DNA of 64,000 bases from contig OY821747.1 of the NCBI GenBank assembly GCA_963682055.1, positions 14,806,258 through 14,870,257 of the forward strand. The letters are read 5' to 3'. Below the pieces are notes generated by a model. That model made no database searches, was not told the DNA's origin, and saw only the letters and a program-made list of their open reading frames with translations. This DNA comes from Primula veris. Lineage: Eukaryota; Streptophyta; Magnoliopsida; Ericales; Primulaceae. Positions 24,665 to 63,966 of the stretch are shown piece by piece. The number at the start of each line of letters is the position of its first letter. The stretch's first letter is position 1. The position numbers were made by a program, and so were the translations under genes.

Positions 24665-25330
24665 ATCGTATTATGAGATTCCTTTTTAGCTAGAATATAG
24701 TCATCTAGACATTATCCCTTTTTTTTAGTATAGGTTTTGGCTGCAAAAATTAATTTCTACATGTTTTAGAGATAGAAAAATTAAACTTAAAGAAGAATTA
24801 GTAGAGTGAAAACTACATAAGCACCTTTTTTTTATTACTCTTCTGCTCGTAGTAAATCAGAAGCATTTTACTTTAGTGAACACAAAAGGTGAGTATTTAC
24901 TAAATTTGAACAACGTTGAGTTTTGTCACAAGCTTTCCTTTTTTTGTGTAGAAAATAAAGTAAATCGCACATTTTGTAACTTATTGAATTTTGTTACCAC
25001 GATAACAAATCTTAGTGATTTTTTCTTAAAAACAAAATGATGCCATTCTCATCAATAGTCTGCACTTTTATGACCAAAATTGATGCCATGTATTCATATA
25101 CTGTATGAAAGTGTAGCTATACAAATGTTAAATTTTCAATGGTTTTAATTGTTGATTTAACCATCACAGTCGTTTGGTAAAAACAAAGTGGAGACTGCAT
25201 AAATTTTGATATTATAGTTTTGTTTTACCTGTTCCTTTATAAAGTCTGTCATTTTATAAAGTATACTATACAAAAACCTAAACCCGCTCTCGACCATGGA
25301 TTTTTTTTAGTGTTTGGATCCCTGGTTCTT
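24665..25330. other. Element A spacer between copia and element B
   Basis: AT-rich, with no coding sequence recognised. It is the continuation of 21299-22098 once the copia element is removed. It ends with the target duplication TTCTT (25326-25330) of element B. Confidence 0.5.
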
Positions 25331-26218
25331 TGTCACGCCCCAAAATCGATAGAACACGGATATCGAGGCATGACCTTTTTAAAACAAAAGAAAATAGAAC
25401 CTGTTGGTACGAAATTAAAAATTTAAAAAGAAAACATTTGCAAGCTAAAGGAACAATTAACGGATAAATAAAAAGTTTGCCAAACGCGGCTACAAGTCAG
25501 GATTTATAAAAGCTAAAAATAACGAACGAATGAATTTGCCCGTAGACTACAACCTCGAAAATGTCTAAGTAAAATGAAAGCAGCATAAAGAAGTCCCGAG
25601 CCCATGTGATGCCTTGCTAAAGCTCATAACGAAAAGCCTCAACCTATAACGTACCTGAACAACAAAATTGTAACGGTGAGTCCCACGCACATAACTAGAC
25701 GGGACGGCACCACAAATACCGTCACTCCATCCCATAGATGCAAGAGCTCACAAATTCTACAACTACTATAATCGACGTATAAAAAAAAATATAATAACAT
25801 TCTATAACGGGATGAATTAAATAAATTAAATAACGTCAACACAAATCTATAACAAACATGGACCTCTCATGCCACCTACCCCAGTCCGTAAGGTAGGTCA
25901 TTCCCTATCCCCTCGGCCGTCTTCTGTCCCCGGAATTAGGAAGAGACAGAGACCATTGCTAACATAAAAGTAGATTTAAAGTGCGCACTTGGACCTCTCA
26001 TGCCACTCGTCCCAGTCCGTAAGACGAGTCATTCCCTATCCCCACGGCCGTCTACTGTCCCCGGAATTAGGAAGAGACAGAGACCATAGCTAACATAAAA
26101 ATAAATATAGTGCACACTAGGACCTCTCATGCCACTCGCCCCAGTCCGTAAGACGAGTCATTCCCTATCCCCACGGCCGTCTTCTGTCACCGGAATTAGG
26201 AAGAGACAGAGACCATTG

Positions 26219-26461
26219 CTAATGTATCAATATCAAGGCCTCGGCCAATAATATTATACTATTCATATAACACAATCTCATACGTATAAATATTAAGGCC
26301 TCGGCCAATAATATTATACTATTCAAATAACACAATCTCATACGTATAAATATTAAGGCCTCGGCCAATAATATTTTACTATTCAAATAACACAATCTCA
26401 TACGTATAAATATTAAGGCCTCGGCCAATAATATTATACTATTCAAATAACACAATCTCAT
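26219..26461 (-). repeat. 60-bp tandem repeat in LTR (4 copies)
   Basis: The unit contains AAGGCCTCGGCCAATAATAT and CACAATCTCATACG; the core AGGCCTCGGCC is near-palindromic. Four copies here and four at 33587-33829, but only two in both LTRs of element C (35436-35556 and 40973-41093). The open frame across it is an artefact of the repeat. Confidence 0.9.
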
Positions 26462-26936
26462 ACGTCACGTAACGTAATGCAACATAATCCAAAAGCATAA
26501 GTGCTAGATTCACAACTAGCCAAACAAGTCTAATCAACATAAAACTCATTCAGGCATTTTAACAAACACCTTGTATACGCAATATAAAACACATCTTTAT
26601 TCAACAATAATTTACCCAATTCTATCAACAACAATAATAATACATAATCAATGCATATAACACGCAACCCATTAATATTATCATTATCATTAATCCGAAA
26701 TCAAAATACTAAATCCACAACTAATCCAAAATCAAAGAAGCGAATTAAAAATATAACAACTAACCCCAATTAACAATTTAAGAACATAATTAATATAAAA
26801 GGCAAAAACCCCCAATTTATACTAAACGTAAAACCTAATCCTAACATACACCCTCGTCTAGTCGCAATGGATAACCCCCGTTACTTTAGCGTGTAGAGGA
26901 GATGATTCCGGTAATAATCCGCTAACGTGGTTTCTC

Positions 26937-27023
26937 TTCTTCTTCTTCTTCTTCTTCTTCTTCTTCTTCTTCTTCTTCTTCTTCTTCTTCTTTTTCTTCT
27001 TCTTCTTCTTCTTCTTCTTCTTC
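26937..27023. repeat. TTC microsatellite
   Basis: About 29 triplets with one interruption. The same position in the partner LTR (34304-34326) has about seven, and element C has five to six GAA units at 35152-35169 and 40685-40705. The expansion therefore postdates insertion of element B. Confidence 0.9.
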
Positions 27024-30000
27024 TCTTTTCTCTCTTTTTCTCTCTTGGCTGATTTTTAGGTTTAAAGAATTGAAAAGTGGGCTGATTTTAGGTTTAGAAA
27101 AACTGTTTTTAGATAGTTTGTGAAAGCGAACTATTTGGTCCCCAAAGTTCTAAAAGCTAACTCTTAATCCAAAAATATTAATATACTACTCAATAATAAC
27201 AAATCTTTAGAAACAAAACTATTGAGTCCTTTTTATTTATAAAATTAGTAACAGGTTTTAAAAATAAAGCTTTTCGGAAGAGTTTCGGTTTTTGGCTAAA
27301 AATTTAGTCGAGTGACCGGTTTTTGGTAAAATTTTGAATAAAACGTTTTTGGATAAATTAAATCATAAATAAAAATTACTTATAAAAATACGGGATGTTA
27401 CAACTAACCCTCCTTAAAAGAATTTCGTCCCGAAATTTCCTTTCTAAACAACTATACCCAGAAATGATAAACTTATATAAACAAAACCGTAAGAATTTAA
27501 ATGTACAATTCGTGTCATAATTTAAGAAATAAAATACACAGGGTTCACAACCCATAACAACTTCACAATCCATAACTGCAGAAAATGACCGTAAGAACAT
27601 AAAATCAAGTAACCGTATGTATACAATATCTAATTGAATAAAAGACAATAAAGTAAGCAAAGATGACATGTTTCTACCTCAACAACTCCACAACGTCTAC
27701 AACACTCAAAATACGGTCCTTCTAGTAAACTAAACTCAAATAAAATAAACTCTCAATCCAGACCCGGGGGTGTCACACGGCTGAATAACATGTGTGGCGG
27801 CACGTGCTAAACAAAGCCTAAATGAAATAATTATTAAACACTCGCTAAATAACTCATTAAATAAGCTCAAATTTCTAGTAAAAGCTTCATTAAATAAAAT
27901 CTCGAAAATTACGTTCATTACAAGAAGTTAATCTCTTACAGCTAAAATAAAGATGTAATCGAAATAGTAATAATAAAATCTTTTTCTTTCTTTTTATGGT
28001 AAAAGCAAAATGATAACATGTATATCTTAGAGTACCAAGCCCTATTGACTTCCTCAATCTCTTTACCGTCGATCTTTTTCTCAGGTGTATAAACCATACG
28101 TGCACTACGTAATTAAGGTCACCACAGCATGACGGCTGAGTCTATTCCTTAAAACGTTCCGGTTAACAAAACTATGTACAATCGCTAAGTTAACCGTTGA
28201 GAACTAAACTCTTTCGTTTAGTTGCCAACGTCACCCCACTTTCCTCTTCCCCTTATTCGGGATTCTCCGTTGGACTTATTCTCATGGTCCCAAATACAAA
28301 TCATAAGCAAATTATAAATTAATAAATTTAGAAACCTTATACAGATACACTTTATATAACCTTTATCTTTATAAGATATAAACTAGTTCTCTTTATACAG
28401 ATCCATTGTATATAAATCACTTCTTCTTTTTCATTCTTTTCTTTCTTTTATTTACTTTGTTTTCGTAACAATATAAAAACAATGTTTCCATATATAATTA
28501 GTACTTGAAAAATAATACCCATGAGCCTGTAAAATATTATCAAAAGTTGCAACGGAATATTTATAATAGCAAGACAAAACCCACTCACCTAATATTAATC
28601 TGAAAGAACAGAAACATTTCTACAACGAATAATCTAGTGCTTAGCTTTCCACTAAACCTTTTCCCTTGCTCAACATAGGACTTTAATTCTCTCATCTTTG
28701 TATACTTTCGTTACATACATATAATTTTAATACAGTAAAGGAGTATAGAATCTAATCAGGGAAATGCTACCTAGATTTCTTTCTTTATTTGCATTGGTGT
28801 ATATATCTATATTAACAAGGAAGAATTCATTACAGGGACGTGTATATGGCATGACAATTGGCTTAGCATTTACAGTACAATTCTATACCAATTTATTACT
28901 TCCGTTTCAATTTCTCATGCAAGGTTACCTCCTTAATAAATTACTAGCAACAGAAACTCTTTGAAGACATGTAACATTATTTCTCCTTAAATATTCCACG
29001 CATAGTAGTTATAGGAATAAATACAAACCTCTCCATATAGAAAACTCAAGATAATATTTACTATTCTTAATTGACATTTACTCTTCAGACAAGGCATCGG
29101 TTTTATATATGAATACAATCAAATCATGTCATTAATCATCTTAGTGAGGCATTCAAAGACCCATAACTTACACCATTATTCCTAATCATACGTTTATACA
29201 ATTCAATATTTCTAACCGAAGTAAATTACATAATTACTAGGCCCAATTCTTACCAGCTAATCCCTAAAAGTACTACCACATATCAATCCATGGTAAATTA
29301 TTTTACCAATTAAATACCTCTAAATCCTTTAAAACTCTATAGCTTTGATAACGTGTAACCGTAAGTTCCTTAAATCACTTAAACAACTAAACATTAGTAT
29401 TCTTACTTATGAAAACAAAATAGTCACATGAGTAATTATTTAGAAGAATAAATATTCAAAATAAAAATTTTAAATTAAAATACGTGATTTTACACTCTCC
29501 ACCACTTAAAGAAGTTTCGTCCCGAAACTTTATTTCTTTAATAACTTGAAAAAAAAAATAATGTTTCTGAATAATATTATATATGCTTTCTTAGACGTGA
29601 TTAAATCAGCTCACATAATTTCTTTAACACAACCGGTCTCCAAAACAGTTACTTGTGTATGCATGTAGCATAAACTATATAAAAGAAGTATAATAAAAGG
29701 TATCTTGGAAACTCATTTGAGATTAAAATTACTAATAATAATATCATCATTATCCTTGTGAAACTTGAAAACTTATGATGGAAAAATACTAATGTAAATT
29801 CCTAAGGTCAAACTTTTACCACTTCCGATCGTTTATTATCTCATTAATTACCAAATTCTATAACTCCCATCAATCATAATTCCAAAACTCTATAACTCCC
29901 ATCAATCATAATTCCAAAACTCTATAACTCCTGTCTACATAATTCTTAGTCCAAATTCTGATTTTAGTCATCATCAATGCTAATAACAAAGTGTACATCA

Positions 30001-31860
30001 TGAAAGCAAAACACATGAGGTAAGCTAATCTTTTAATTGGTAAAAATAAAAAATAAATTTGTTTCTACCATGTTTTTCCTTGAACTGATAATTAACCTCT
30101 GGGATGGTTCAAATTCAAACAACTATTATTGATATTTATACCGTAAGATAACCAAACCTATTCCAAAACTTGTTTCCATATCGTTTTCCGAAACATTTAT
30201 TACTTATACATCTATATCTATTTCATGTGCTTCCGCTGCACGCTCTGATAAATAATAATAATAATGGTGTTAACCGGCCTAACATTGCATTTTGTTTCTA
30301 ATTTATCAAACAATCCAGTTTTAGCATCTAGACCACCACCCAAAAATAATACCAATCTCCCTTTATACCATGTTCTCTTAAACAAAACAATCTTTAATTA
30401 ATAAGAAGCGCAAAACCTAATAATTTATATTTAGTCCCAAAATACCACTCCAAATTCACATGTAATACATGCTCTCAATCAAAGTGCAAGACCTGTTGAA
30501 ACTTTGCAACTAATCCGACCAAAGAGATTTACTCGAAATAACTAGGACAACTATAATGCTAGTTCACTTATTATTTGAACACTTTAAACACAAATTAAAT
30601 CTCAAGTTTGGATCCTAATTATAGCTTAAACATCTTTTACAGTGGTCAAACGAATTGAAAATAACCTAACGTATCATTTCATTGAAACTCTAAGCAAAAG
30701 TCGGCACCGAAAGGTAATCCATGGACAATATTAAATTACAAAAATTAGAAGGAAACTACCATAATCGAGGTTCTCTTATAGCTGTCGAAAACTTCTACTA
30801 AAAAAAAAAAATCCATAAAATAAATAAATATATCCTAGCATGCCCTTTTGTTTGTTAGTTACAATCCGCCGCAATAGTTAACTACATTTTTATTTATATA
30901 TACCAAACTAGTGACTTCATTAACGTACAATCCATTAATAGAAATAATAAGAAAATGTTTTAAAAACTTTGTCTCACCTATAATAGTTTACAAACGCAAA
31001 CATTTTAACTTGTACAGGGGCATGCTACACCAGATATATTTCTTAAGTTTTCAATAGTTAATCTTATAAAAATAAAATCTATTAAAATTCCCTTATATCG
31101 ACCTTGAATTTAGTACATATGAAATTAGCTGTGTGTAATTCCTCTTAAATATGGACACCAAACCAACTCAACTAAATTAAGTCTTACATTATAGTATAGT
31201 CTTACATTATACAATATCAAATGAGATTCTTCATGTAGGGACAATTAACTTAAAACCTAAAATATCTAAGTCCCCGGTTATCATTCTATCGAGTGAAGAA
31301 AAATAGTTGCTAAATGTGAAACATATATATAAAACACTAGCTTACCATCTAACCAAGAAAAAATTTATATTCAATGTCTAAAAGAGTAGAATGATGTTAT
31401 AAGGAAGAAATAAGTGCACAAACGACTTATAAAACTAATGAATTTAGGACACGACCTCACAACACGTAATTAAACATTCATGTTTTCCAACTAATAAAAT
31501 CTAACCAAATCTTTTTTTTTCATTCTAATACATGTATTTATATATATCTATATATTTTATAACATATTATAATGATTTGCAAAGACATCAAATTCCGCTA
31601 ATCATACAATACAACATTCCGCACATTACGTGATAATCAACAAAACATGTAAATCATGATAAAAGCTCGTTTTTCATGGTAATAATTTTATCAAGATTTC
31701 TAAGTTTTATAATTATAGAGCACTGAAATACGAAGCCAACGCTTCAAGCAGAATCAAATTCGGAGTAAAAACGAAGGAGTTACGAGCGTTTGAAGTTTAG
31801 CGAAAAACCGCAAAATTTGCCAGAAAACGACCAATCGTTTTTGACAAAACGAACAGTCAT

Positions 31861-32039
31861 TTTTTGGTCCAGTAGGGTCTGAAAAATTCGACCGATCATT
31901 TTTAAGAAACGACTGATCGTTTTTTGGTCCAGTAGGGTCTGAAAAATTCGACCGATCGTTTTTAAGAAACGACCGATCGTTTTTTGGTCCAGTAGGGTCT
32001 GAAAAATTCGACCGATCGTTTTAAGAAACGACCGATCGT
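31861..32039. repeat. 60-bp tandem repeat with CGATCG palindromes
   Basis: Three units, each opening TTTTTTGGTCCAGTAGGGTC and holding two GACCGATCGTTTT motifs. A degenerate partial unit lies upstream at 31830-31860. It belongs to the leader of element B, close to the priming site. The whole region is missing from element C. Confidence 0.85.
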
Positions 32040-32679
32040 TTTTCTGCAGAAACTTATCGATACAAAAGCGTAAAATTACTCAATACTTGTAAATCCCTTA
32101 CAAGGAACATAGCACGCAACTACATCATTTTAGTCCACAACATTATTACAATCAACATCCATTCGCATAAAATGCTCATTAACACACAAGTTAATAATAT
32201 GAAAACGCACTACGTAAAATCATCAACAACACAATTTTCACACTCTAATAGTACGCTACTACACACGTATGCAAACTTATACCTTATACACATCATATAA
32301 ATCTACACACGCATACAATCAACATAAAAATGCGAGGGATAACCCATCACGATACGTTATCCTAAAGCACCCGAGCGTCCTCGCATACTCTAGAATTCCA
32401 CATCGCTAAGGTATTCCTTCACACATACCGACGAGAGGTCTACCCACTAGTTTGGCGAGCCGGGATCAACGAGCGTCCTCATTGTCCCCAACTTGCCTCA
32501 CATGTGGACTTTACTTTCATCAACTACTACTAAATTATAGCTACATGTCTTAAGCTAAATGCAACCCCCCGTTTTAGAAAAAGTTTGAGGTTTTGGAAAA
32601 AGTTTTTGAAAAAAGATACGATGGATCTTGGTCCAATGGTTACCCATCTTCCCGTCGTCCCAAAGTATACAAGAACCTA

Positions 32680-32697
32680 GTTAGCTCTGATACCAAC
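32680..32697 (-). other. Primer binding site of element B
   Basis: Next to the inner end of the 5' LTR, the - strand reads TTGGTATCAGAGC, the standard plant site complementary to the 3' end of initiator tRNA-Met. This fixes the transcription direction of element B as leftward. Confidence 0.9.
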
Positions 32698-32698
32698 T

Positions 32699-34704
32699 TG
32701 TCACGCCCCAAAATCCATAGAACACGGATATCGAGGCATGACCTTTTTAAATCAAAAGAAAATAGAACCTGTTGGTACGAAATTAAAAATTTAAAAAGAA
32801 AACATTTGCAAGCTAAAGGAACAATTAACGGATAAATAAAAAGTTTGCCAAACGCGGCTACAAGTCAGGATTTATAAAAGCTAAAAATAACGAACGAATG
32901 AATTTGCCCGTAGGCTACAACCTCGAAAATGTCTAAGTAAAATGAAAGCAGCATAAAGAAGTCCCGAGCCCATGTGATGCCTTGCTAAAGCTCCTAACGA
33001 AAAGCCTCAACCTATAACGTACCTGAACAACAAAATTGTAACGGTGAGTCCGACGCACATAACTAGACGGGACGGCACCACAAATACCGTCACTCCATCC
33101 CATAGATGCAAGAGCTCACAAATTCTACAACTACTATAATCGACGTATAAAAAGAAATATAATAACATTCTATAACGGGATGAACTAAATAAATTAAATA
33201 ACGTCAACACAAATCTATAACAAACATGGACCTCTCATGCTACCTACCCCAGTCCGTAAGGTAGGTCATTCCCTATCCCCTCGGCCGTCTTCTGTCCCCG
33301 GAATTAGGAAGAGACAGAGACCATTACTAACATAAAAGTAGATTTAAAGTGCGCACTTGGACCTCTCATGCCACTCGTCCCAGTCCGTAAGACGAGTCAT
33401 TCCCTATCCCCACGGCCGTCTACTGTCCCCGGAATTAGGAAGAGACAGAGACCATAGCTAACATAAAAATAAATATAGTGCACACTAGGACCTCTCATGC
33501 CACTCGCCCCAGTCCGTAAGACGAGTCATTCCCTATCCCCACGGCCGTCTTCTGTCACCGGAATTAGGAAGAGACAGAGACCATTGCTAATGTATCAATA
33601 TCAAGGCCTCGGCCAATAATATTATACTATTCATATAACACAATCTCATACGTATAAATATTAAGGCCTCGGCCAATAATATTATACTATTCAAATAACA
33701 CAATCTCATACGTATAAATATTAAGGCCTCGGCCAATAATATTTTACTATTCAAATAACACAATCTCATACGTATAAATATTAAGGCCTCGGCCAATAAT
33801 ATTATACTATTCAAATAACACAATTTCATACGTCACGTAACGTAATGCAACATAATCCAAAAGCATAAGTGCTAGATTCACAACTAGCCAAACAAGTCTA
33901 ATCAACATAAAACTCATTCAGGCATTTTAACAAACACCTTGTATACGCAATATAAAACACATCTTTATTCAACAATAATTTACCCAATTCTATCAACAAC
34001 AATAATAATACATAATCAATGCATATAACACGCAACCCATTAATATTATCATTATCATTAATCCGAAATCAAAATACTAAATCCACAACTAATCCAAAAT
34101 CAAAGAAGCGAATTAAAAATATAACAACTAACCCCAATTAACAATTTAAGAACATAATTAATATAAAAGGCAAAAACCCCCAATTTATACTAAACGTAAA
34201 ACCTAATCCTAACATACACACTCGTCTAGTCGCAATGGATAACCCCCGTTACCTTAGCGTGTAGAGGAGATGATTCCGGTAATAATCCGCTAACGTGGTT
34301 TCTCTTCTTCTTCTTCTTCTTCTTCTCTTTTCTCTCTTTTTCTGTCTTGGCAGATTTTTAGGTTTAAAGAATTGAAAAGTGGGCTGATTTTAGGTTTAGA
34401 AAAACTGTTTTTAGATAGTTTGTGAAAGCGAACTATTTGGTCCCCAAAGTTCTAAAAGCTAACTCTTAATCCAAAAATATTAATATACTACTCAATAATA
34501 ACAAATCTTTAGAAACAAAACTATTGAGTCCTTTTTATTTATAAAATTAGTAACAGGTTTTAAAAATAAAGCTTTTCGGAAGAGTTTCGGTTTTTGGCTA
34601 AAAATTTAGTCGAGTGACCGGTTTTTGGTAAAATTTTGAATAAAACGTTTTTGGATAAATTAAATCATAAATAAAAATTACTTATAAAAATACGGGATGT
34701 TACA
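32699..34704 (-). repeat. 5' LTR of element B
   Basis: 2006 bp, differing from the 3' LTR by only a few substitutions and by the shorter TTC tract. Outer flank TTCTT. Confidence 0.9.
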
Positions 34705-34767
34705 TTCTTCATGGAAATTGTTTGATTTTGATTTAAACAAGGTTTGGGTCGTCTCTTCGGAGTAGTT

Positions 34768-36451
34768 TGTAACATCCCGTATTTTTATAAGTAATTTTTA
34801 TTTATGTTTTAATTTATCCAAAAACGTTTTATTCAAAATTTTACCAAAAACCGGTCACTCGACTAATTTTTAGCCAAAAACCGAAACTCTTCTGAAAAAC
34901 TTTATTTTAAAAAACCTGTTACTAATTTTACTAATAAAAAGGACCCAATAGATTTGTTTCTAAAAATTTGTTATTATTGAGTAGTTTATTAATATTTTTG
35001 ATTAAAAGTTAGCTTTTAGAACTTTGGAGACCAAATAGTTCGCTTCCACAAACTATCAAAAAACAGTTTTTCTAAACCTAAAAATCAGCCCACTTTCATT
35101 CTTTAAACCTAAAAACAAGAGAGAAAAAGAGAGAAAAGAGAGAAAAGAGAAGAAGAAGAAGAAGAAGAGAAACCACGTTAGCGGATTATCACCGGAATCA
35201 TCTCCTCTACACGCTAAGGTAACGGGGGTTATCCATTGCGACTAGACGAGGGTGTATGTTAGGATTAGGTTTTACGTTTAGTATAAATTGGGGGTTTTTG
35301 CCTTTTATATTAATTATGTTCTTAATTTGTTAATTGGGGTTTAGTTGTTATATTTTTAATTCACTTATTTAATTTTGGATTAGTTGTGAATCTAGCACCT
35401 ATGCTTTTGGATTATGTTGTATTACGTTACGTGACGTATGAGATTGTGTTATTTGAATAGTATAACATTATTGGCCGAGGCCTTAATATTGATATGTATG
35501 AGATTGTGTTATATGAATAGTATAATATTATTGGCCGAGGCCTTAATATTGATACATTAGCAATGGTCTCTGTCTCTTCCTAATTCCGGGGACAGAAGAC
35601 GGCCGTAGGGATAGGGAATGACTCGTCTTACGGACTGGGGCGAGTGGCATGAGAGGTCCTAGTGTGCACTATATTTATTTTTATGTTAGCTATGGTCTCT
35701 GTCTCTTCCTAATTCCGGGGACAGTAGACGGCCGTGGGGATAGGGAATGACTCGTCTTACGGACTGGGACGAGTGGCATGAGAGGTCCAAGTGCGCACTT
35801 TAAATCTACTTTTATGTTAGCAATGGTCTCTGTCTCTTCCTAATTCCGGGGACAGAAGACGGCCGAGGGGATAGGGAATGACCTACCTTACGGACTGGGG
35901 TAGGAGGCATGAGAGGTCCATGTTTGTTATAGATTTGTGTTGACGTTATTTAATTTATTTAATTCATCCCGTTATAGAATGTTATTATATTTCTTTTTAT
36001 ACGTCGATTATTGTAGTTGTAGAATTTGTGAGCTCTTGCGTTTATGGGATGGAGTGACGGTATTTGTGGTGCCGTCCCGTCTAGTTACGTGCGTGGGACT
36101 CACCGTTACAATTTTGTATTTCAGGTACCAATTAGGTTGGCATGTTTGGATAAGAGCTGTTGCATTGCAACATCATGGGCTTGGGGCTTCCGTTTTCCTT
36201 TCATTTTTATTATATTTTGAGGTTGTAGCCTATGGGCAAATTATTCGTTTAGTATTCTCTTTTTTTTTGTGTGTCAAAACCATTTTGCTTGTAGCCGCAT
36301 TTGGCAACATTTTTATTTAATTGTCAATTGTTCTTTCAGCTCGTATTTATTTCTTTGAAAAAATTTTAAATTCGTACCAACAGGTTTTATTTTCTTTTGT
36401 TTTAAAAAGGTCATGCCTCGATGTCCGTTTTTAGGATTTTGGGGCGTGACA
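34768..36451 (+). repeat. 5' LTR of element C
   Basis: 1684 bp. Two copies of the 60-bp repeat and three of the roughly 125-bp repeat. Faces the 5' LTR of element B across 63 bp. Confidence 0.9.
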
Positions 36452-39400
36452 CCGGGGACTTAGATATTTTAGGTTTTAAGTTAATTGTCCCTACATGAAG
36501 AATCTCATTTGATATTGTATAATGTAAGACTATACTATAATGTAAGACTTAATTTAGTTGAGTTGGTTTGGTGTCCATATTTAAGAGGAATTACACACAG
36601 CTAATTTCATATGTACTAAATTCAAGGTTGATATAAGGGAATTTTAATAGATTTTATTTTTATAAGATTAACTATTGAAAACTTAAGAAATATATCTGGT
36701 GTAGCATGCCCCTGTACAAGTTAAAATGTTTGCGTTTGTAAACTATTATAGGTGAGACAAAGTTTTTTTTTAAACATTTTCTTATTATTTCTATTAATGG
36801 ATTGTACGTTAATGAAGTCACTGGTTTGGTATATATAAATAAAAAATGTAGTTAACTATTGCGGCGGTTTGTAACTAACAAACAAAAGGGCATGATAGGA
36901 TATATTTATTTATTTTATGGATTTTTTTTTTAGTAGAAGTTTTCGACAGCTATAAGAGAACCTCGATTATGGTAGTTTCCTTCTAATTTTTGTAATTTAA
37001 TACTGTCCATGGATTACCTTTCGGTGCCGACTTTTGCTTAGAGTTTAAATGAAATGATACGTTAGGTTATTTTCAATTCGTTTGACAACTGTAAAAGATG
37101 TTTAAGCTATAATTAGGATCCAAACTTGAGATTTAATTTGTGTTTAAAGTTTCAAATAATAAGTGAACTAGCATTATAGTTGTCCTAGTTATTTCGAGTA
37201 AATCTCTTTGGTCGGATTAGTTGCAAAGTTTCAACAGGTCTTGCACTTTGATTGAGAGCATGTATTACATGTGAATTTGGAGTGGTATTTTGGGACTAAA
37301 TATAAATTATTAGGTTTTGCGCTTCTTATTAATTAAAGATTGTTTTGTTTAAGAGAACATGGTATAAAGGGAGATTGATATTATTTTTGGGTGGTGGTCT
37401 AGATGCTAAAACTAGATTGTTTGATAAATTAGAAACAAAATGCAATGTTAGGCCGGTTAGCACCATTATTATTATTATTTTATCAGAGCGTGCAGCGGAA
37501 GCACATGAAATAGATATAGATGTATAAGTAATAAATGTTTCGGAAAACGATATGGAAACAAGTTTTGGAATAGGTTTGGTTATCTTACGGTATAAATATC
37601 AATAATAGTTGTTTGAATTTGAACCATCCCAGAGGTTAATTATCAGTTCAAGGAAAAACATGGTAGGAACAAATTTATTTTTATGTTTTTACCAATTAAA
37701 AGATTAGCTTACCTCATGTGTTTTGCTTTCATGATGTACACTTTGTTATTAGCATTCATGATGACTAAAATCAGAATTTGGACTAAGAATTATGTAGACA
37801 GGAGTTATAGAGTTTTGGAATTATGATTGATGGGAGTTATAGAATTTGGTAATTAATGAGATAATAAACGATCGGAAGTGGTAAAAGTTTGACCTTAGGA
37901 ATTTACGTTAGTATTTTTCCATCATAAGTTTTCAAGTTTCACAAGGATAATGATGATATTATTAATAGTAATTTTAATCTCAAATGAGTTTCCAAGATAC
38001 CTTTTATTATACTTCTTTTATATAGTTTATGCTACATGCACACACAAGTAACTGTTTTGGAGACCGGTTGGTTAAAGAAATTATGTGAGCTGATTTAATC
38101 ACGTCTAAGAAAGCATATATAATATTATTCAGAAACATTATCTTTTTTTTCTCAAGATATTAAAGAAATAAAGTTTCGGGACGAAACTTCTTTAAGTGGT
38201 GTAGAGTGTAAAATCACGTATTTTAATTTAAAAATTTTATTTTGAATATTTATTCTTCTAAATAATTACTCATGTGACTATTTTGTTTTCATAAGTAAGA
38301 ATACTAATGTTTAGTTGTTTAAGTGATTTAAGGAACTTACGGTTACACGTTATCAAAGCTATAGAGTTTTAAAGGATTTAGAGGTATTTAATTGGTAAAA
38401 TAATTTACCATGGATTGATACGTGGTAGTACTCTTAGGGATTAGCTGGTAAGAATTGGGCCTAGTAATTATGTAATTTACTTCGGTTAGAAATATTGAAT
38501 TGAATAAACGTATGATTAGGAATAATGGTGTAAGTTATAGGTCCTTGAATGCCTCACTAAGATGATTAATGACATGATTTGATTGTATTCATATATAAAA
38601 CCGATGCCTTGTCTGAAGGGTAAATGTCAATTAAGAATAGTAAATATTATCTTGAGTTTTCTATAACGAGAGGTTTGTATTTATTCCTATAACTACTATG
38701 CGTGGAATATTTAAGGAGAAATAATGTTACATGTATTCAAAGAGTTTCTGTTGCTAGCAATTTATTAAGGAGGTAACCTTGCATGAGAAATTGAAACGGA
38801 AGTAATAAATTGGTATAGAATTGTAGTATAAATGCTAAGGCAATTGTCATGCCATATACACGTCCCTATAATGAATTATTCCTTGTTAATATAGATATAT
38901 ACACCAGTGCAAATAAAGAAAGAAAGCTAGGTAACATTTCCCTGATTAGATTTTATACTACTTTACTGTATTAAAATTATATGTATGTAACGAAAGTATA
39001 CAAAGATGAGAGAATTAAAGTCCTATGTTGAGCAACGGAAAAGGTTTAGTGGAAAGCTAAGCACTAGATTATTCGTTGTAGAAATGTTTATGTTCTTTCA
39101 GATTAATATTAGGTGAGTGGGTTTTGTCTTGCTATTATAAATATTCCGTTGCAACTTTTTATAATATTTTACAGGCTCATGGGTATTATTTTTCAAGTAC
39201 TAATTATATATGGAAACATTGTTTTTATATTGTTACGAAAACATAGTAAATAAAAGAAAGAAAAGAATGAAAAAGAAGAAGTGATTTATATACAATGGAT
39301 CTGTATAAAGAGAACTAGTTTATATCTTATAAAGATAAAGGTTATATAAAGTGTATCTGTATAGGTTTCTAAATTTATTAATTTATGATTTGCTTATGAT

Positions 39401-40301
39401 TTGTATTTGGGACCACGAGAATAAGTCCAACGGAGAATCCCGAATAAGGGGAAGAGGAAAGTGGGGTGACGTTGGCAACTAAACGAAAGAGTTTAGTTCT
39501 CAACGGTTAACTTAGCGATTGTACGTAGTTTTGTTAACCGGAACGTTTTAAGGAATAGACTCAGCCGTCATGTTGTGGTGACCTTAATTACGTAGTGTAC
39601 GTATGGTTTATACACCTGAGAAAAAGATCGACGGTAAAGAGATTGAGGAAGTCAATAGGGCTTGGTACTCTAAGATATACATGTTATCATTTTGCTTTTA
39701 CCATAAAAAGAAAGAAAAAGATTTTATTATTACTATTGCGATTACTTTTTTATTTTAGTTGTAAGAGATTAACTTCTTGTAATGAACGTAATTTTCGAGA
39801 TTTTATTTAATGAAGCTTTTGCTAGAAATTTGAGCTTATTTAATGAGTTATTTAGCGAGTGTTTAATAATTATTTCATTTAGGCTTTGTTTAGCACGTGC
39901 CGCCACACATGTTATTCAGCCGTGTGACACACCCGTGTCTGGGTTGAGAGTTTATTTTATTTGAGTTTAGGTTACTAGAAGGACTGTATTTTGAGTGTTG
40001 TAGACGTTGTGGAGTTGTTGAGGTAGAAACATGTCATCTTTGCTTACTTTATTGTCTTTTATTCAATTAGATATTGTATACAGATGGTTACTTGATTTGA
40101 TGTTCTTACATGTTGGTCATTTTCTGCAGTTATGGATTGTGAAGTTGTTATGGGTTGTGAACCCTGCGTATTTTATTTTATTTTTATTATGACACGAATT
40201 GAGCGTTTAAATTCTTATGGTCTTATTGTACGTTTATCATTTCTGGGTATAGTTGTTTAGAGAGGAAATTTCGGGACGAAATTCTTTTAAGGAGGGTTAG
40301 T

Positions 40302-41988
40302 TGTAACATCCCGTATTTTTATAAGTAATTTTTATTTATGTTTTAATTTATCCAAAAACGTTTTATTCAAAATTTTACCAAAAACCGGTCACTCGACTAA
40401 TTTTTAGCCAAAAACCGAAACTCTTCTGAAAAACTTTATTTTAAAAAACCTGTTACTAATTTTACTAATAAAAAGGACCCAATAGATTTGTTTCTAAAAA
40501 TTTGTTATTATTGAGTAGTTTATTAATATTTTTGATTAAAAGTTAGCTTTTAGAACTTTGGAGACCAAATAGTTCGCTTCCACAAACTATCAAAAAACAG
40601 TTTTTCTAAACCTAAAAATCAGCCCACTTTCATTCTTTAAACCTAAAAACAAGAGAGAAAAAGAGATAAAAGAGAGAAAAGAGAAGAAGAAGAAGAAGAA
40701 GAAGAGAAACCACGTTAGCGGATTATCACCGGAATCATCTCCTCTACACGCTAAGGTAACGGGGGTTATCCATTGCGACTAGACGAGGGTGTATGTTAGG
40801 ATTAGGTTTTACGTTTAGTATAAATTGGGGGTTTTTGCCTTTTATATTAATTATGTTCTTAATTTGTTAATTGGGGTTTAGTTGTTATATTTTTAATTCA
40901 CTTATTTAATTTTGGATTAGTTGTGAATCTAGCACCTATGCTTTTGGATTATGTTGTATTACGTTACGTGACGTATGAGATTGTGTTATTTGAATAGTAT
41001 AACATTATTGGCCGAGGCCTTAATATTGATATGTATGAGATTGTGTTATATGAATAGTATAATATTATTGGCCGAGGCCTTAATATTGATACATTAGCAA
41101 TGGTCTCTGTCTCTTCCTAATTCCGGGGACAGAAGACGGCCGTAGGGATAGGGAATGACTCGTCTTACGGACTGGGGCGAGTGGCATGAGAGGTCCTAGT
41201 GTGCACTATATTTATTTTTATGTTAGCTATGGTCTCTGTCTCTTCCTAATTCCGGGGACAGTAGACGGCCGTGGGGATAGGGAATGACTCGTCTTACGGA
41301 CTGGGACGAGTGGCATGAGAGGTCCAAGTGCGCACTTTAAATCTACTTTTATGTTAGCAATGGTCTCTGTCTCTTTCTAATTCCGGGGACAGAAGACGGC
41401 CGAGGGGATAGGGAATGACCTACCTTACGGACTGGGGTAGGAGGCATGAGAGGTCCATGTTTGTTATAGATTTGTGTTGACGTTATTTAATTTATTTAAT
41501 TCATCCCGTTATAGAATGTTATTATATTTCTTTTTATACGTCGATTATTGTAGTTGTAGAATTTGTGAGCTCTTGCGTTTATGGGATGGAGTGACGGTAT
41601 TTGTGGTGCCGTCCCGTCTAGTTACGTGCGTGGGATTCACCGTTACAATTTTGTATTTCAGGTACCAATTAGGTTGGCATGTTTGGATAAGAGCTGTTGC
41701 ATTGCAACATCATGGGCTTGGGGCTTCCGTTTTCCTTTCATTTTTATTATATTTTGAGGTTGTAGCCTATGGGCAAATTATTCGTTTAGTATTCTCTTTT
41801 TTTTTGTGTGTCAAAACCATTTTGCTTGTAGCCGCATTTGGCAACATTTTTATTTAATTGTCAATTGTTCTTTCAGCTCGTATTTATTTCTTTGAAAAAA
41901 TTTTAAATTCGTACCAACAGGTTCTATTTTCTTTTGTTTTAAAAAGGTCATGCCTCGATGTCCGTTTTTAGGATTTTGGGGCGTGACA
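40302..41988 (+). repeat. 3' LTR of element C
   Basis: 1687 bp; differs from its partner by a few substitutions and an extra GAA triplet or so. Preceded by the polypurine tract GGAGGGTTAG. Confidence 0.9.
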
Positions 41989-55432: not shown

Positions 55433-56539
55433 TGTTTCACACAAATTTTCACAAAGGCTTGAAAATAAAATACATGAAAATTAATGGTGAACAAATGAAT
55501 TTATATTTCAATTTATGCGAGTACAATACTCTGAATAATTTTCTACAAAGGTAGAAAACAAATAATCCTTTGATTCTTCCTTCCAACAACTTTTGGTGGC
55601 TTGATTGACTTGTTTTGGGATCGAATACTTGAATTCTTGAAGAAACGCTTGATGTGAGCTTAATATTGTTTATGTTGATTATCTTGAGTTTGTTTTGTAC
55701 TTGATTGATGTTCTTCAACTTTAATGAAGATATTTGTTGACTTGATCTTGAGAAACGTCGAGTTCTCATCTTTTAATGCTTCTTGCAGATCGAACAGTGG
55801 ACTTGCTTGAGTTTCTTGATGAACTTGGTTGAAGATCTTCAAATTTTTTGAAGGTCTTTCAAGGTTGATCTTGAGAAACATCGCGGCTCTTAATGCTCCT
55901 TGTAGATCGAACAGTGGATTTGTTTGAGTTTGTTGATGAACTTGGTTGAAGATCTTCGAATTTTTTGAAGGACTTTGAAGATTGATCTTGAGAAATGTCG
56001 GATTCGCGGCCTTTAATGCTTCTTGCGGATCGAACGTAGGATCTTCTTCGATTTGTTGATGAAGTTGATGAAACTTCAAATCTTCTTGCTGATCTTCGAG
56101 GATTCGAGGCTTGATTTTGGCTTGAATTTTTCAGAGATTCTATCAAAGTCTACTTTGCCTTGAATTTTTGTGTCGAAAATGTGAGGCCTCCCCCTCTATT
56201 TATAGTAGTCGGGATGAAATATTTACAACGGTGCCTACCCAAGCTTGACATTTTTACCAAACAGTGCCATGAACAAATAAGTGCATTTAAACAAACACAA
56301 ATGCTTTGGAAGGATTATAAAAGAGCATTATATATTAAGTTACTCTTTCATTTGTAATAAATTAATCACTTTCGAGAAAAGAAATATTTTATATTTTATA
56401 TATTTATTATCTTTTTCTTTTATGTAACAATAAATATATATTTTTCTTCTCTTTTTGTTAGAAAATTAGTAATTAGTTTTAATTTAATTTAGAACATACG
56501 TGTCATATTTTTATTGGGTGTAAAATTTGTGTGTCTACA
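55433..56539 (-). repeat. 5' LTR of element A
   Basis: 1107 bp, TGTTTCACAC ... TGTCTACA on the + strand. The 5' half (in + orientation 55600-56110) is built of imperfect repeats with GGATCGAAC and TTGATGAACTTG. The open frames at 55449-56146 are read through these repeats and are not taken as genes. On the - strand TATAAATA (56195-56202) is a candidate TATA box for the element transcript. Confidence 0.85.
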
Positions 56540-57545: not shown

Positions 57546-57839
57546 TTAGTTTGCTAGACGGTTTAACATGTAACAAAATTTAGATATTTATATGTAAAGA
57601 AGGGTATTTGTCTTTACTAACGAGTTTAACAAATATTCTTAGTAATATATAATGCGTTTTACGTTATTAATGAGTATATTTATTGAATTGATATAGTTTG
57701 CTAGACGGTTTAACATGTAACCAAATTTATATATTCATATGTAAAGAAGTGTATTTGTCTTTACTAACGAGCTTAACAAATATTCTTAGTAATATATAAT
57801 GAGTTTTACGTTATTAATGAGTATATTTATTGAATTGAT
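57546..57839. repeat. 147-bp tandem duplication
   Basis: The unit with AGTTTGCTAGACGGTTTAAC and TCTTTACTAACGAG appears at 57546-57692 and 57693-57839 with about eight differences. Non-coding. Confidence 0.9.
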
Positions 57840-57950
57840 AAAAACCTCTTTAAAATAATAAATTATTAACTTATCGATTAATTAATATCTCTCTAAATTA
57901 ATGAATTTTCATGGTCCAAACAATATTAATTTATAGAGGTTTTACTACAA
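57837..57950. mobile_element. Emigrant-like MITE (pogo family)
   Basis: The inverted ends TGATAAAAACCTCTTTAAA and TAGTAAAACCTCTATAAA resemble the Emigrant TIR and the ends of the pogo-like element at 58507-61277. At about 110 bp it is a short non-autonomous relative that the transposase of that element might once have moved. Confidence 0.6.
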
Positions 57951-58506
57951 TAAAGTGATTCCCTATGTGATTTAGCTTTTGAAATTTGTTATTTCACCAT
58001 TGCAATAAGTAAAAATTGTATAGCTGAACTCAAAACACATGTTCACTCTGTCCCTAAACAAATTTACTTTACGAAAATACATGCAACTTTTACTATCAAA
58101 ATTTCCGAAATAAAAAATTAAAAATTCTATCATATAGCTCCAACCATGAACTTTGCGATTAACTTTTGAAAATATTTTTTTGGGCAATCTAGATATGAAA
58201 AAATTATCGGTCAAAATTGTACGTATTTTTGTAGATGACATTTGTTTAGAGACTTCTGATTATTAAATTGCGGCAGAGTGAGTATATGACTAGCAATATT
58301 GGTCATTTAAGGTTACCTTTTAGAAGGAAAGGAAATATATATGGAATTACGAAACCAATAATAGACTATAAAAAAAAATGAACAATTGACTAATGATGAA
58401 CGAGGCCAGGTCATAAGGGGGTGTAGATGGTTCCATGATTCCAACTGAAACGAAATCACATCCGTTTCGGAAAAGTTTTGACAGCCCGGAGTCATTTATA
58501 TTGGTA
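57951..58506. other. Non-coding stretch left of the pogo-like element
   Basis: No gene. A segment near 58266 (TTGCGGCAGAGTGAGTATAT) repeats one at 57194, showing that the local duplication extends here. Ends in TA (58505-58506), the target site of the pogo-like element. Confidence 0.5.
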
Positions 58507-58771
58507 CACTAGAAACCCTATAAATTAATATTCATGGGACCACCAAAATTTATTAATTAAAAAAATTATTAATTAATCGATAAATTAATAATTAATAATT
58601 TATATATTAATTAATATTTTATTAATTTATAATGAAATAATCAATTTACAAACACCTTTCAAACTTTCACTTAATTATTGTACAATGCATGTATGTATAT
58701 CAAATGAATGGCCCAATTTGGTTGAGAAATCTCTCACTCTCTATATATATATATATCACTCTCTCTCTAAA

Positions 58772-59083
58772 ATGGCGAAGAGACTGATACCTTGCCTAAA
58801 CCGGGTTTTGGTTGAGAAAATCATTCCACCTACCAAAACCGCTAGCGGGATCTTGCTCCCCGAGAAAACCGCCAAGCTGAACTCAGGTAAAATTGTAGCT
58901 GTTGGTCCTGTGATTCATGATAAAAATGGAAATAAGATTCCTGTAAGTTTGAAGGAAGGTGACACGGTTCTCTTAACTGAGTATGATGGAAGTGAAGTTA
59001 AGCTTGGCGATAAAGAGTATCATCTTTACCTCGATGAAGACATTCTGGGAACTCTGCATGAATTAGACTATTCTCGTTGCTGA
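58772..59083 (+). CDS. CPN10: 10-kDa chaperonin (CPN10/GroES family), inside a transposon
   Basis: A 103-aa GroES-family co-chaperonin. In mitochondria such proteins cap the CPN60 ring during protein folding. The start MAKRLIPCLNRVLVEKI is the standard plant CPN10 start; the frame is open for 29 more codons upstream, but those are not family-like. The mobile loop that binds CPN60 is present (PPTKTASGILLPEKTAKLNS), as are GKIVAVGP, LKEGDTVLL, and the C-terminal YHLYLDEDILGTLHE. Plant homologues usually end there at about 97-98 aa; here LDYSRC is added. There is no intron and no stop, which suggests a processed (retro)copy or strong loss of introns. The 5' side has a (TA)n and a CT-rich leader. 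It lies between the left TIR and the transposase of a pogo-like element. Some usual Gly/Pro positions are changed (LLTEYDGS). Expression is unknown. Confidence 0.9.
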   Translation: MAKRLIPCLNRVLVEKIIPPTKTASGILLPEKTAKLNSGKIVAVGPVIHDKNGNKIPVSLKEGDTVLLTEYDGSEVKLGDKEYHLYLDEDILGTLHELDYSRC

Positions 59084-59435
59084 ATATCGAGAAATACTTC
59101 ATGGATCTTGGTTGAGTTTTAACTTAGTGCCTACTACAGTCGTGTGATCTCAATTGAATAATGAACTGTGGTGAAGCTTTTATTGTTGGAATATTATCCT
59201 AGAAGTAAGAAACCCCGAGATTTTCTCATTTGAATATTATGTCTTTGTGACCGACCGCCTTGCAATTCATCTTGTGTTCATTTGCCTGTTGAATGACCCA
59301 ATTTGAAAGCACCCTTCAATCTCCCACCTTATTATGCTTCTTGTGTTCAATGTATCACTTTATGGATATTAAAAAATATTTTCTATATAAATACAAGATC
59401 AAAATATGCTAACACAAACAAATCATACACACAAC
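59084..59435 (+). promoter_or_regulatory. Spacer between CPN10 and transposase, with transposase promoter
   Basis: Contains the 3' part of the CPN10 transcript and, at 59382-59391, TATATAAATA followed by the transposase start 45 bp later. A segment at 59306-59336 (GCACCCTTCAATCTCCCACC) is similar to 58651-58680 (CACCTTTCAAACTTTCAC), upstream of CPN10, so the chaperonin segment may be bounded by a short direct repeat. Confidence 0.4.
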
Positions 59436-60837
59436 ATGGCGTCCCATCTTAAAGGTGTGAAAAAAACAACAATGACCGACGAGATTCGAAGAGTATTATG
59501 CAAGCACAACAAGCATAATCCAAGTCTCACTCAAAAGCAATTGCAAGAATGGGTTCTTAGTAACTATGGTTTGCAGGTGAGTAAATGGACAGTATCGAAT
59601 ACAGTTAAGCGGTCTTCAGAGTATCTTTCACTTGCTCCCGAAAGAGGTGATGTTAAGCGACACAAACCGGCAAAATTTCCTGACCTAGAAAAATCTCTCT
59701 ATGAATGGATTCTTCAATATCAAGAACATGTGAATATGACAGGTGAACTAATCATCGAGAAGGCAAAAAAGTTCATGAAAGATATGTATCATGTGGATAC
59801 TCCATACTTTACTTTTTCTATTGGTTGGCTTGGAAAGTTCAAAACAAGATATGGAATTAAAAAAATTCGGCGTTTCGCAGAGAGTGGATCAGTTGAAATG
59901 GAGGGCATGGAGCACAAATTAAAAATCATAAGAGACAGAGTGGATCAGTTTGAAATGAAAGACATCTTTAATATGGATGAAACAGGTTTGTTTTTTTATT
60001 TTTTTATTATTTTTTATTTTGTACTTTAGTGATGTAATTATTTACATGTTTTGATCTTAAACAGCTTTGTTTTTTAGACTTCAACCGGATCATTCCCTTG
60101 CAACAATGCAACTTGAAGGAAAAAAACAAGACAAGGAAAGACTAACTGTTGTTATTTGCTGTAATGAGAACGGTTCAGAGAAAATTCCTTTATGGATTAT
60201 TGGGAAATATGCTAAACCAATGTGCTTCAAGAATGTAAACTTGAACAGTTTGAACTGTGAGTATCGTGCTAACAAACGAGCTTGGATGACTGGGGTGTTA
60301 TTTGAAGAATATGTTTGCCAACTTGATAAAAAAATGGTTGGAAGAAAAATTCTCTTGATTGTGGATAATTTTCCAGCTCATCCAAAAATTATTGAAGGAT
60401 TGCGAAATGTTGAATTATTTTTTTTGCCACCAAACACAACTTCAAAAATTCAACCTTGTGATGCGGGGATTATACGAGCTTTTAAGATTCATTATCGTCG
60501 TCGATTTTATAGAAGTCTTTTGGAGGGTTATGAATTAGGGGTTCCAAATCCAGCAAAAATAAATGTGTTAGATGCAATGAATCTTGCAATTTTAGCATGG
60601 ATTATGGATGTTCATGCAAATACAATTGCGAACTGCTTTCGTCATTGTAAACTTCGATCAACAGATAACATGGCTTTTGAGAACTCCGATGAACAGGTAG
60701 GTGGTGAAAGCACTCAAGAACTCCGAAATTTGATCGAAGAGTTGGGTTATCACAATGCAATGGATGTCGAAAATGTCCTGAACCAACCAGAAGAAAATGT
60801 AGTTGCACAGGTTTTGACTGATGAAGAAATTTTGTGA
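59436..60837 (+). pseudogene. Pogo/Tigger-like transposase (DDE_1, CENP-B type), late frameshift
   Basis: Two exons, 59436-59985 and 60065-60837, joined by a 79-bp GT-AG intron, give about 440 aa. I prefer ATG 59436 (ACAACATGG context) to the in-frame 59406. The N-terminal half has the CENP-B-type helix-turn-helix pair (LTQKQLQEWVLSNYGLQVSK and YFTFSIGWLGKFKTRYGIKK). The catalytic triad is DDD: Asp in FNMDET at the exon junction, Asp in ILLIVDNFPAH, Asp in TTSKIQPCDAGIIRAFK. TGA at 60835 ends this frame, but family-like sequence goes on in another frame to 61076 (MKPPSRNEAIKAAITLNNFL, YEKTTPEVLTMIRKIRNEIQ). A 1- or 2-base indel at about 60833 therefore truncates the acidic C-terminal tail. 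The catalytic core is complete, so activity cannot be excluded. Confidence 0.88.
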
Positions 60838-61281
60838 GCGTTATTGGAACTGATAAAGATGATGGAGATGATGATGAAAGTTCTACCATGAAGCCCCCTT
60901 CACGAAACGAAGCTATTAAAGCGGCAATCACATTGAATAATTTCTTGTTGAGCTATGAGAAAACAACACCAGAAGTTCTTACAATGATAAGGAAAATTAG
61001 AAACGAGATTCAAGGTGAAATTGATTTCAACAAAAAACAAAAGACAATTGAGTCATTTTCCAAGAAATCTTCATAAATCATTCATGTAATATGTAGTATA
61101 TAAGGAATTATTAATTTATATTTTATATGGGGTCTATAGAAATTATCAAAAATATATTATCTTATAATTTTAGTGAATTATTAATTTAGCACCCTATCCC
61201 CGAGTCGGGACCGGCCAAAAATATTATCTTAGAGAGTTTATTAAATAATCGAGTATTAATTTATTGAGTTTCTACTGTATA

Positions 61282-62407: not shown

Positions 62408-62700
62408 TTAATTTTTGTAAATTGGATCATCCAAACGTTCTGTTGTATCTTCATTTTTAGGATAAGTGAAAAATGGTTTTAATCGTTGGCCATTAACAGC
62501 GAATTTGTTTCCATTTTTTGGATTTTCAATTTCTACCGTACCATAAGGAAATACTTTTCTTACAATATAAGGACCGCTCCACTTTGTTCTAAGTTTACCA
62601 GGAAACAAATGAATTCTTGAGTTGTAAAGTAAAACTTTGTCTAATGGCTGAAATTCTTTGCAGAGAATTGATTTATCGTGAAATAATTTTTGACGTGCTT
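62408..62700 (-). pseudogene. Integrase C-terminal part of Athila-like element
   Basis: The frame 62608-62408 has FPGKLRTKWSGPYIVRKVFP and VNGQRLKPFF, the integrase C-terminal domain shape of Athila-type elements. It ends with TAA at 62408. It is in a different frame from the integrase core, with the shift near 62700. No chromodomain is present. Confidence 0.8.
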
Positions 62701-63231
62701 TTTCAGTTTTGAATTCTGGTAAGCATCATTTCTTATTTCTTCTAATTCGTTTAATTGTAGATAACGTAGGTTTTCTGCATCATGTTTTTCAAAATTTAGA
62801 TTTTTAATTGCCCATAATGTTTTATGCTCTAATTCTACAAGAAGATGACATACTTTTCCAAATACTAAACGATAAGGAGACATACCTAAAATTGTTTTGT
62901 ATGATGTACGATATGCCCAAAGTGTATCTTGTAGTCGATTAGACCAATCTTTCTTATCAGAATTTACTGTTTTTTCTAGAATTCGTTTTATCTCTCTGTT
63001 TGCTAATTTAGTTTGTCCATTTGTTTGAGGGTGGTAAGTTGTGGCAATTTTATGAGTAACACCATATTTTATTAAAATCCTTTCAAGCATTCGATTGCAA
63101 AATTGTGTGCCATTATCACTAATTAAAGCTTTTGGAAATCCAAATCGATAAATAATATTTTCCTTTAAAAAGTTTACTACAGTTTTGGCATCAACATTTT
63201 TACAAGCAATTACTTCTACCCACTTACTCAC
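62641..63231 (-). pseudogene. Integrase catalytic core of Athila-like element
   Basis: The frame begins MSKWVEVIACKNVDAKTVVN just after the first catalytic Asp position. It holds ALISDNGTQFCNRM (second Asp), TTYHPQTNGQTKLANREIKR (catalytic Glu), and DTLWAYRTSYKTILGMSPYR. This is a Ty3/gypsy integrase. The frameshift near its C-terminus and stops before 63231 inactivate it. Gene order RNase H, integrase on the - strand agrees with the piece at 63370-63966. Confidence 0.88.
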
Positions 63232-63369
63232 ATAATTAGCAGCAACAAGTATGTAAAGATTAGCTAAAGAATTAGGAAAAATGTCCCATAAAATCTATAC
63301 CCCAACAATAAAAAAATTCAATAATTAAAATTAGTGTTAAAGGCATCATATGTCTTCTAGTCATTCCTT

Positions 63370-63966
63370 CTAACTTTTGGCATTTACCACAACCTTTGCA
63401 AAATTCATAAGTGTCTTTAAACATTGACGGCCAGTAAAATCCACTTTGTAATTTTTTTTTTCCGTAGTTTTGTCACCACATGCTTCACTATGACAAAATC
63501 TAATGATACTATCAAATTCACTATATGGCACACATTTGTTATAAATTTGGTCAGCGCAATATTTAAAAATAGTGATCATCCCAATAAAACCTTTTAACTT
63601 CATGCAAGAATTTTCTACGATCTTGTGCAACGGAATGTGGAGGTAGTGTGTTTGTGACAAGAAAATTTGATCACAAAAAGTGTGTGCTATTGATTTTCCA
63701 TTATCTCTAAAATCATAAGTGAGTCTAGATAGATGGTCGGCAACTAAATTTTCTACCCCTTTTTTATCTTTTACTGATACATTAAATTCTTGTAACAAAA
63801 GTATCCAACATAATAGTCTAGGCTTTGCATCTGACTTTGACATAAGGTATTTAAGAGAAACATGGTCTATAAAGACCACTACTAAAGACCCTACAAAATA
63901 TGAGCGAAATTTGTTTAAGGCAAATACTACTGCTAGCATTTCTTTTTCTGTTGTTGAATAATTCAT
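63370..63966 (-). pseudogene. RNase H and integrase zinc region of Athila-like element
   Basis: The frame opens MNYSTTEKEMLAVVFALNKF and includes SLKYLMSKSDAKPRLLCWIL and ENLVADHLSRL, the RNase H end of Ty3/gypsy pol in its Athila form. It then passes into the integrase N-terminal part (FDSIIRFCHSEACG). The reverse transcriptase should lie to the right of the window; sequence to 64000 continues the RNase H. The element is partial here and its LTRs are not in the window. Confidence 0.85.

Follow-up and report, generated by a model that had tools for sequence, protein, structure and literature searches.

The window analyzed here, a 64,000-nucleotide stretch of the Primula veris genome (C8:14806258-14870257), holds a pogo-type DNA transposon in which an intron-free copy of the host chaperonin gene CPN10 lies beside the transposase of the element. 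The history that we consider very probable begins with the duplication of a locus on C8 that carried an empty element, continues with retroposition of CPN10 into the copy at 9.37 Mb and transposition of the loaded element to the window, and ends with a passenger gene evolving free of constraint. Read in this way, the genome preserves an unusually complete record of two steps, from mRNA to transposon and from transposon to new locus, in which the parent gene, the empty target, the likely first recipient, and the moved copy all persist together.

The element spans 58507-61277 of the window. Its 24-bp terminal inverted repeats (TIRs), at 58507-58530 on the plus strand and 61254-61277 on the minus strand, agree at 21 of 24 positions, and the dinucleotide TA stands outside each of them (58505-58506 and 61278-61279) as the target-site duplication (TSD). 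Between the TIRs, all on the plus strand, subterminal and leader sequence (58531-58704) is followed by the left copy of a 16-bp site (58705-58720), the 569-bp CPN10 copy (58721-59289), the right copy of the site (59290-59305), the remaining transposase leader (59306-59435), and a transposase gene in two exons. The CPN10 frame of 103 codons plus stop (58772-59083, with the stop at 59081-59083) matches Pfam Cpn10 over 58772-59080 at 9.9e-24. A preliminary description of this DNA had placed a CPN10 frame and a pogo transposase within a single TIR pair bordered by TA, and this outline holds. The window contains four matches, at three or fewer mismatches, to a 19-base motif from the end of a small neighboring element, as against a mean of 0.15 after shuffling, and two of the four are the pogo ends.

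The transposase frames contain the Pfam domains HTH_ABP1_N, HTH_Tnp_Tc5, and DDE_1. Exon 1 (59436-59985) encodes the two DNA-binding motifs and the first catalytic aspartate, and exon 2 (60065-60837) encodes DDE_1; they are parted by a predicted 79-bp GT..AG intron (59986-60064), at whose aligned positions GT..AG is found in 10 of the 14 aligned copies. The catalytic triad of the spliced frame, D181, D284, and D316, with residues chosen by motif and not by alignment to Lemi1, has a final spacing of 31 (DD31D). Among named proteins, the transposase is most similar to plant CENP-B homolog protein 2-like proteins. Its identity is 91% to a protein of Tanacetum coccineum and 88% to one of Bidens hawaiensis. 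The marks given for Lemi elements are HTH_Tnp_Tc5 alone or together with HTH_ABP1_N, a DDE_1 domain, a DD29-42D triad, a TA TSD, and TIRs of at most 40 bp (PMC7386202, in its accessible part). All of these are present here, and by domains, triad, TSD, and TIRs we assign the element to the Lemi type, the plant branch of pogo; the earlier designation as pogo/Tigger-like therefore stands for pogo, with Lemi a better name than Tigger. The spliced frame ends after 440 residues, next to a 1-nt deletion that lies just before the out-of-frame remainder of the C-terminal coding sequence (60838-61076). When the exons of the window copy are mapped onto the 14 aligned copies, the frame meets a premature stop in every one, with first stops from residue 7 to residue 513; the window copy stops at 440, and one copy (L025) reads to 513 of 521. 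These counts, like the alignment and the tree discussed below, cover 14 of 19 copies, with two copies that could not be closed (L027 and L030) and three with large internal deletions (L033-L035) left out. Movement of the window copy could have relied on its own transposase, truncated at the C terminus, or on one acting in trans.

Other repeats are found in the vicinity and elsewhere in the window. A small element of about 110 bp at 57837-57948 contains an inverted match to the pogo left end (57853-57944; 92 nt, 82%) and has ends at 57842-57942 that we take to be Emigrant-like; it is possibly a MITE of the same family. Adjoining the pogo insertion, a repeat at 58043-58253 with 44-nt inverted ends is probably an abundant MITE, with 1438 first-look candidates in the genome, of which 40 were scored. 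In the region 25330-41970, long direct repeats (99-100% identical) recur about 5.5 and 7.3-7.4 kb apart, alongside long inverted arms (83-100%), and tandem units of 60 bp and about 130 bp lie inside. The segments 20218-21298 and 55474-56539, about 35.25 kb apart and 88-93% identical in pieces, are possibly LTRs or a duplicated element, and minus-strand frames at 62408-63472 resemble, by eye, a Gypsy-type integrase region.

That the CPN10 sequence is an insertion into a preexisting element follows from the empty copies of the same family. The whole element was compared with the 436.5-Mb assembly containing the window and gave at least 131 matches; as 40 of 704 first-look candidates were scored, copy numbers for the element are lower bounds, whereas in both genome searches with CPN10 all 10 of 10 candidates were scored. 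Many of these matches are split into two, covering positions 1-214 and 784-2771 of the query, with an overlap of 16 bp in the genome. Sequence was retrieved for 17 CPN10-free loci and for the single additional locus that contains CPN10. Both ends could be closed in 15 of the 17 CPN10-free loci, with a few end bases extrapolated, the exceptions being L027 and L030. In all 15 closed copies the 16-bp site is single, and in the window it is present twice, in copies that differ at one base (15/16 identical), around the 569 bp. The 569 bp are therefore an insert flanked by a 16-bp target duplication. Some of the 15 (e.g., L024, L025, L026, and L034) represent a form of the element in which the roughly 110 bp preceding the 16-bp site are different. 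The leader also contains a diverged direct repeat, 58640-58704 against 59290-59375, whose score of 53 was reached in none of 2000 shuffles; two wider comparisons of these stretches likewise gave 0 of 2000, and three others were weaker (7, 99, and 1222 of 2000). Such a repeat may be real and is probably older than the CPN10 insertion. An explanation of these stretches as a tandem repeat split by the insert was superseded, since the genome copies make the 16-bp duplication decisive.

The source of the insert is a gene on C10. The native CPN10 gene starts at C10:31610779 and has three exons separated by predicted GT..AG introns of 3,630 and 364 bp. Similarity between the insert and this gene takes in all three exons, starting about 47 bp ahead of the ATG and ending 218 bp beyond the parental stop, so that the matched flanks would correspond to untranslated regions, and both introns are precisely gone, at 58876/58877 and 59016/59017. 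Over 552 aligned bases there are 17 substitutions (3.1%) and a few small indels. A diverged paralogue with widely separated exons is present at C9:10529638-10533509, with 78% identity to the retrocopy over 125 bases around exon 1. With an intron-bearing gene on C10 and a paralogue on C9, we rejected the view that the CPN10 of the window is itself the native gene; comparison with the native locus, proposed in the preliminary description, thus finds that locus elsewhere. As the copy is intron-free and its C10 source is not, it is concluded that CPN10 reached the pogo element by retroposition and not by DNA capture. The exact loss of the parental introns and the target duplication, single in 15 of 15 closed empty copies, are what is expected of a processed retrocopy.

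The enzyme that inserted the copy would presumably have been LINE-like, with both of the L1 marks, a poly(A) tail and the target motif, missing. A 3' poly(A) tract was sought at the end of the insert and is absent, with GCCTGT ending the insert in both CPN10-bearing copies. The TT/AAAA target was likewise sought at the nick position of the 15 empty sites and is absent there, the position reading CAAA/TGAA in 12, AAAA/TGAA in 2, and CAAA/TAAA in 1. At the 5' junction, about four bases (GTTG) have no explanation. It is therefore conceivable, if the less favored reading, that a CPN10 cDNA served as filler at a staggered double-strand break and was not placed by the target-primed reverse transcription of a LINE; this would alter a single step within the favored history, and its probability is not to be counted on top of the others. 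The lack of a tail, the GTTG bases, and the lack of a TTAAAA-like target would all suit such an event. Against it, the 16-bp duplication is clean and the copy is long, and both features are usual for LINE-like retroposition. Moreover, tail-less L1 retrocopies are mentioned in the accessible text of PMC4838847, although the target motif is present in those.

Retroposition by a LINE-like enzyme, our preferred reading, was followed by movement of the loaded element. Across the genome, the junction between the retrocopy and the right copy of its target duplication occurs at exactly two sites at no more than one mismatch, one in the window and one at C8:9371203. The latter lies within an element at C8:9370757-9373185 (9.37 Mb), the one further CPN10-bearing copy found in the genome. 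TA stands at its ends, as in the window copy; it lacks element positions 85-419, which are replaced by three bases, and it therefore has only the 3' part of CPN10. Of the 356 bases compared in this part, both copies depart from the parent at 10, the window copy alone at 2, and the 9.37 Mb copy alone at 1; some of the 10 may be changes that occurred in the parent. The two elements also have 22 derived element bases in common. Their 300-bp flanks do not align (scores of 24 and 19, compared with 568 and 554 for a true-duplicate control). Since the passenger changes are shared and the flanks are different, the loaded element has moved. A second loaded copy at a different site also supports the original proposal that a pogo-type element contains CPN10 as well as its own transposase gene.

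The likely order of these events can be read from a segmental duplication on C8. The regions C8:9367681-9382663 and C8:9464651 onward, about 97 kb apart, are 94-97% identical and contain the pogo element with and without CPN10, respectively. The match, close to 95% in the flanks on either side, covers about 3 kb upstream of the element and, within the sequence retrieved, no less than 9.6 kb downstream of it, and the two elements occupy the same TA; the one at 9.47 Mb is empty. The 1-nt deletion in the transposase is found in the window, 9.37 Mb, and 9.47 Mb copies and is absent from the other 11 of the 14 aligned copies. Divergence is 4.6% (91/1972) between the duplicated elements, 3.1% (17/552) between retrocopy and parent, a value with a wide error and a partly constrained parent, and 2.2% (43/1977) between the window and 9.37 Mb copies. 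Dated with a plant substitution rate of 7e-9 per site per year, the three divergences would correspond roughly to 3.3, 2.2, and 1.6 million years, and their order fits a sequence of duplication, retroposition, and transposition. It can accordingly be hypothesized that a Lemi-type element was present at a C8 locus, whose duplication would have yielded the 9.37 and 9.47 Mb copies; that spliced CPN10 mRNA from C10 was then reverse-transcribed into the leader of the 9.37 Mb copy, with duplication of 16 bp; and that the enlarged element later transposed to a TA at 14.86 Mb, in the window. The internal deletion at 9.37 Mb might then be the scar of an abortive gap repair after excision.

The element tree fits this order less comfortably. 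It is nearly star-shaped, with the window and 9.37 Mb copies as sisters (support 1.00) and the 9.47 Mb copy grouped with L023 (0.86). Derived bases common to all three C8 copies number only 3; a further 2 are confined to the window and 9.47 Mb copies, and 35 are private to the 9.47 Mb copy. The star-like shape, the placement with L023, and the small number of shared derived bases would tell against the proposed order. They could be taken to mean that the window element was the first recipient and that CPN10 reached the 9.37 Mb copy from there, through gene conversion or through gap repair with the window element as template, given that the window and 9.37 Mb copies are closer (2.2%) than the 9.37 and 9.47 Mb paralogues (4.6%), that the tree leaves the 9.47 Mb copy apart from this pair, and that conversion would leave the 9.47 Mb copy empty as well. 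We regard this course of events as unlikely, as descent of the window copy from the 9.37 Mb copy would yield the same distances, and the 1-nt deletion shared by the three and absent from 11 others puts the window copy in the lineage of that locus. An empty version of the window insertion site was sought with both flanks, which are repeat-rich, and no other match reached the insertion edge. Movement from 9.37 Mb to the window appears the better account of direction.

The two remaining alternatives fare worse. In the preliminary description the CPN10 gene was viewed as captured, by comparison with MULEs, CACTA elements, and Helitrons. Pack-MULEs and Pack-CACTAs are thought to take up genes via gap repair or template switching, and a TIR transposon with host sequence next to its own transposase fits such a DNA-level capture of genomic CPN10. 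This route is nevertheless highly improbable in the present case: the insert lacks both introns (3,630 and 364 bp) exactly, similarity reaches no further than about 47 bp ahead of the ATG on one side and 218 bp beyond the parental stop on the other, and a 16-bp duplication borders the insert. The view of capture therefore gives way to that of a spliced RNA copy entering an existing element. We also rejected, as having next to no chance of being correct, an origin of the left TIR from a separate, unrelated MITE that would leave CPN10 beside and not inside the pogo element, an idea that the Emigrant-like ends nearby (57842-57942) might invite, because all 15 closed empty copies have a left end of the same kind joined to this transposase, at a similar distance from it once the insert is excluded and with no CPN10 in between, and because at 9.37 Mb, a different site, CPN10 is again enclosed by these two ends.

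With the loaded element moved from one site to another, the state of its passenger is of interest. The preliminary description had called the frame intact and suggested that it might be under selection or recently captured. An open frame of 103 codons is indeed present; it exceeds the 97 residues of the parent because the parental TGA stop reads TTA in the window (59063-59065), and this stop is retained in the 9.37 Mb copy. Compared with the parent there are 5 nonsynonymous and 2 synonymous changes (NG86 dN 0.0228, dS 0.0299), for a dN/dS of 0.76 by NG86, 0.64 by YN00, and 1.68 by LWL85, and seven changes give low power; selection was undetected in this comparison. The changes G47V, P69T, G72D, and R87L fall in columns at least 95% conserved among the 120 homologues listed of 1199. 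The parent has no such change at the 57 columns of this kind, and four are found in 2 of the 120 homologues, which also define the columns and are thereby favored. Both copies have P69T, G72D, and R87L, which are therefore older than the move; the 9.37 Mb copy lacks the region for the remaining changes. S8C may instead be a change in the parent, as C is common at this position in other plants and is present in the C9 paralogue by DNA alignment. Overall, with four conserved columns hit and the stop lost, the changes look like drift, and the passenger, which would have evolved as if unconstrained, is probably decaying. Recency is thus what remains of the earlier suggestion, and neither selection nor capture. 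Expression of CPN10 from the element leader, giving a variant co-chaperonin, has in our view only a slim chance of being real.

In relation to known systems, the element resembles the Lemi elements of PMC7386202 in its combination of HTH_ABP1_N and HTH_Tnp_Tc5, its DDE_1 domain, DD31D triad, TA TSD, short TIRs, and length of about 2.2 kb when empty. It differs in the 569-bp host retrocopy within its leader; the main text of that paper contains the string "captur" 0 times. TIR transposons that carry genes are a familiar feature of plant genomes, and the Pack-TYPE elements, which include rice Pack-Mariner, similarly move host coding sequence and, in the latter case, have a TA TSD (PMC8903248). 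In contrast, Pack-TYPE elements are defined as nonautonomous, with no transposase match, whereas here a 440-codon transposase frame lies in the element and the host sequence arrived via RNA.

Among animals, the Pack-TIRs include an ARF6 retrogene almost wholly inside MER20 (PMC8277862), which is similar in that a retrogene is associated with a DNA transposon. Recurrent retroposition was left open by its authors in the accessible text; in the present case the parent, the target duplication, the empty site, and the copy at a second site are all in hand. As described in the accessible parts of the two papers, the rice and maize pipeline files elements with transposase matches as autonomous (PMC8903248) and the animal pipeline drops intronless copies of multiexon parents (PMC8277862), and consequently, by our reading, a case such as this one escapes both. 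Dicot retrocopies with L1-like marks are also known (PMC4838847), and they are similar to the CPN10 copy in intron loss and in the size of their target duplications (13 and 15 bp among those described). They differ, as far as that text describes them, since the copy here has neither poly(A) nor TTAAAA and its target is a transposon that later moved the retrocopy. Among the literature matches listed, from a search that mostly excluded subscription papers, none described a host retrocopy inside a pogo element.

What may be new, then, is that a DNA transposon was loaded through RNA and then transposed. As landing sites for retroposed mRNAs, DNA transposons could gain whole intron-free host frames and then spread them. 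This offers a cut-and-paste element a route to a full host frame without DNA capture, and a new function for that frame is not implied.
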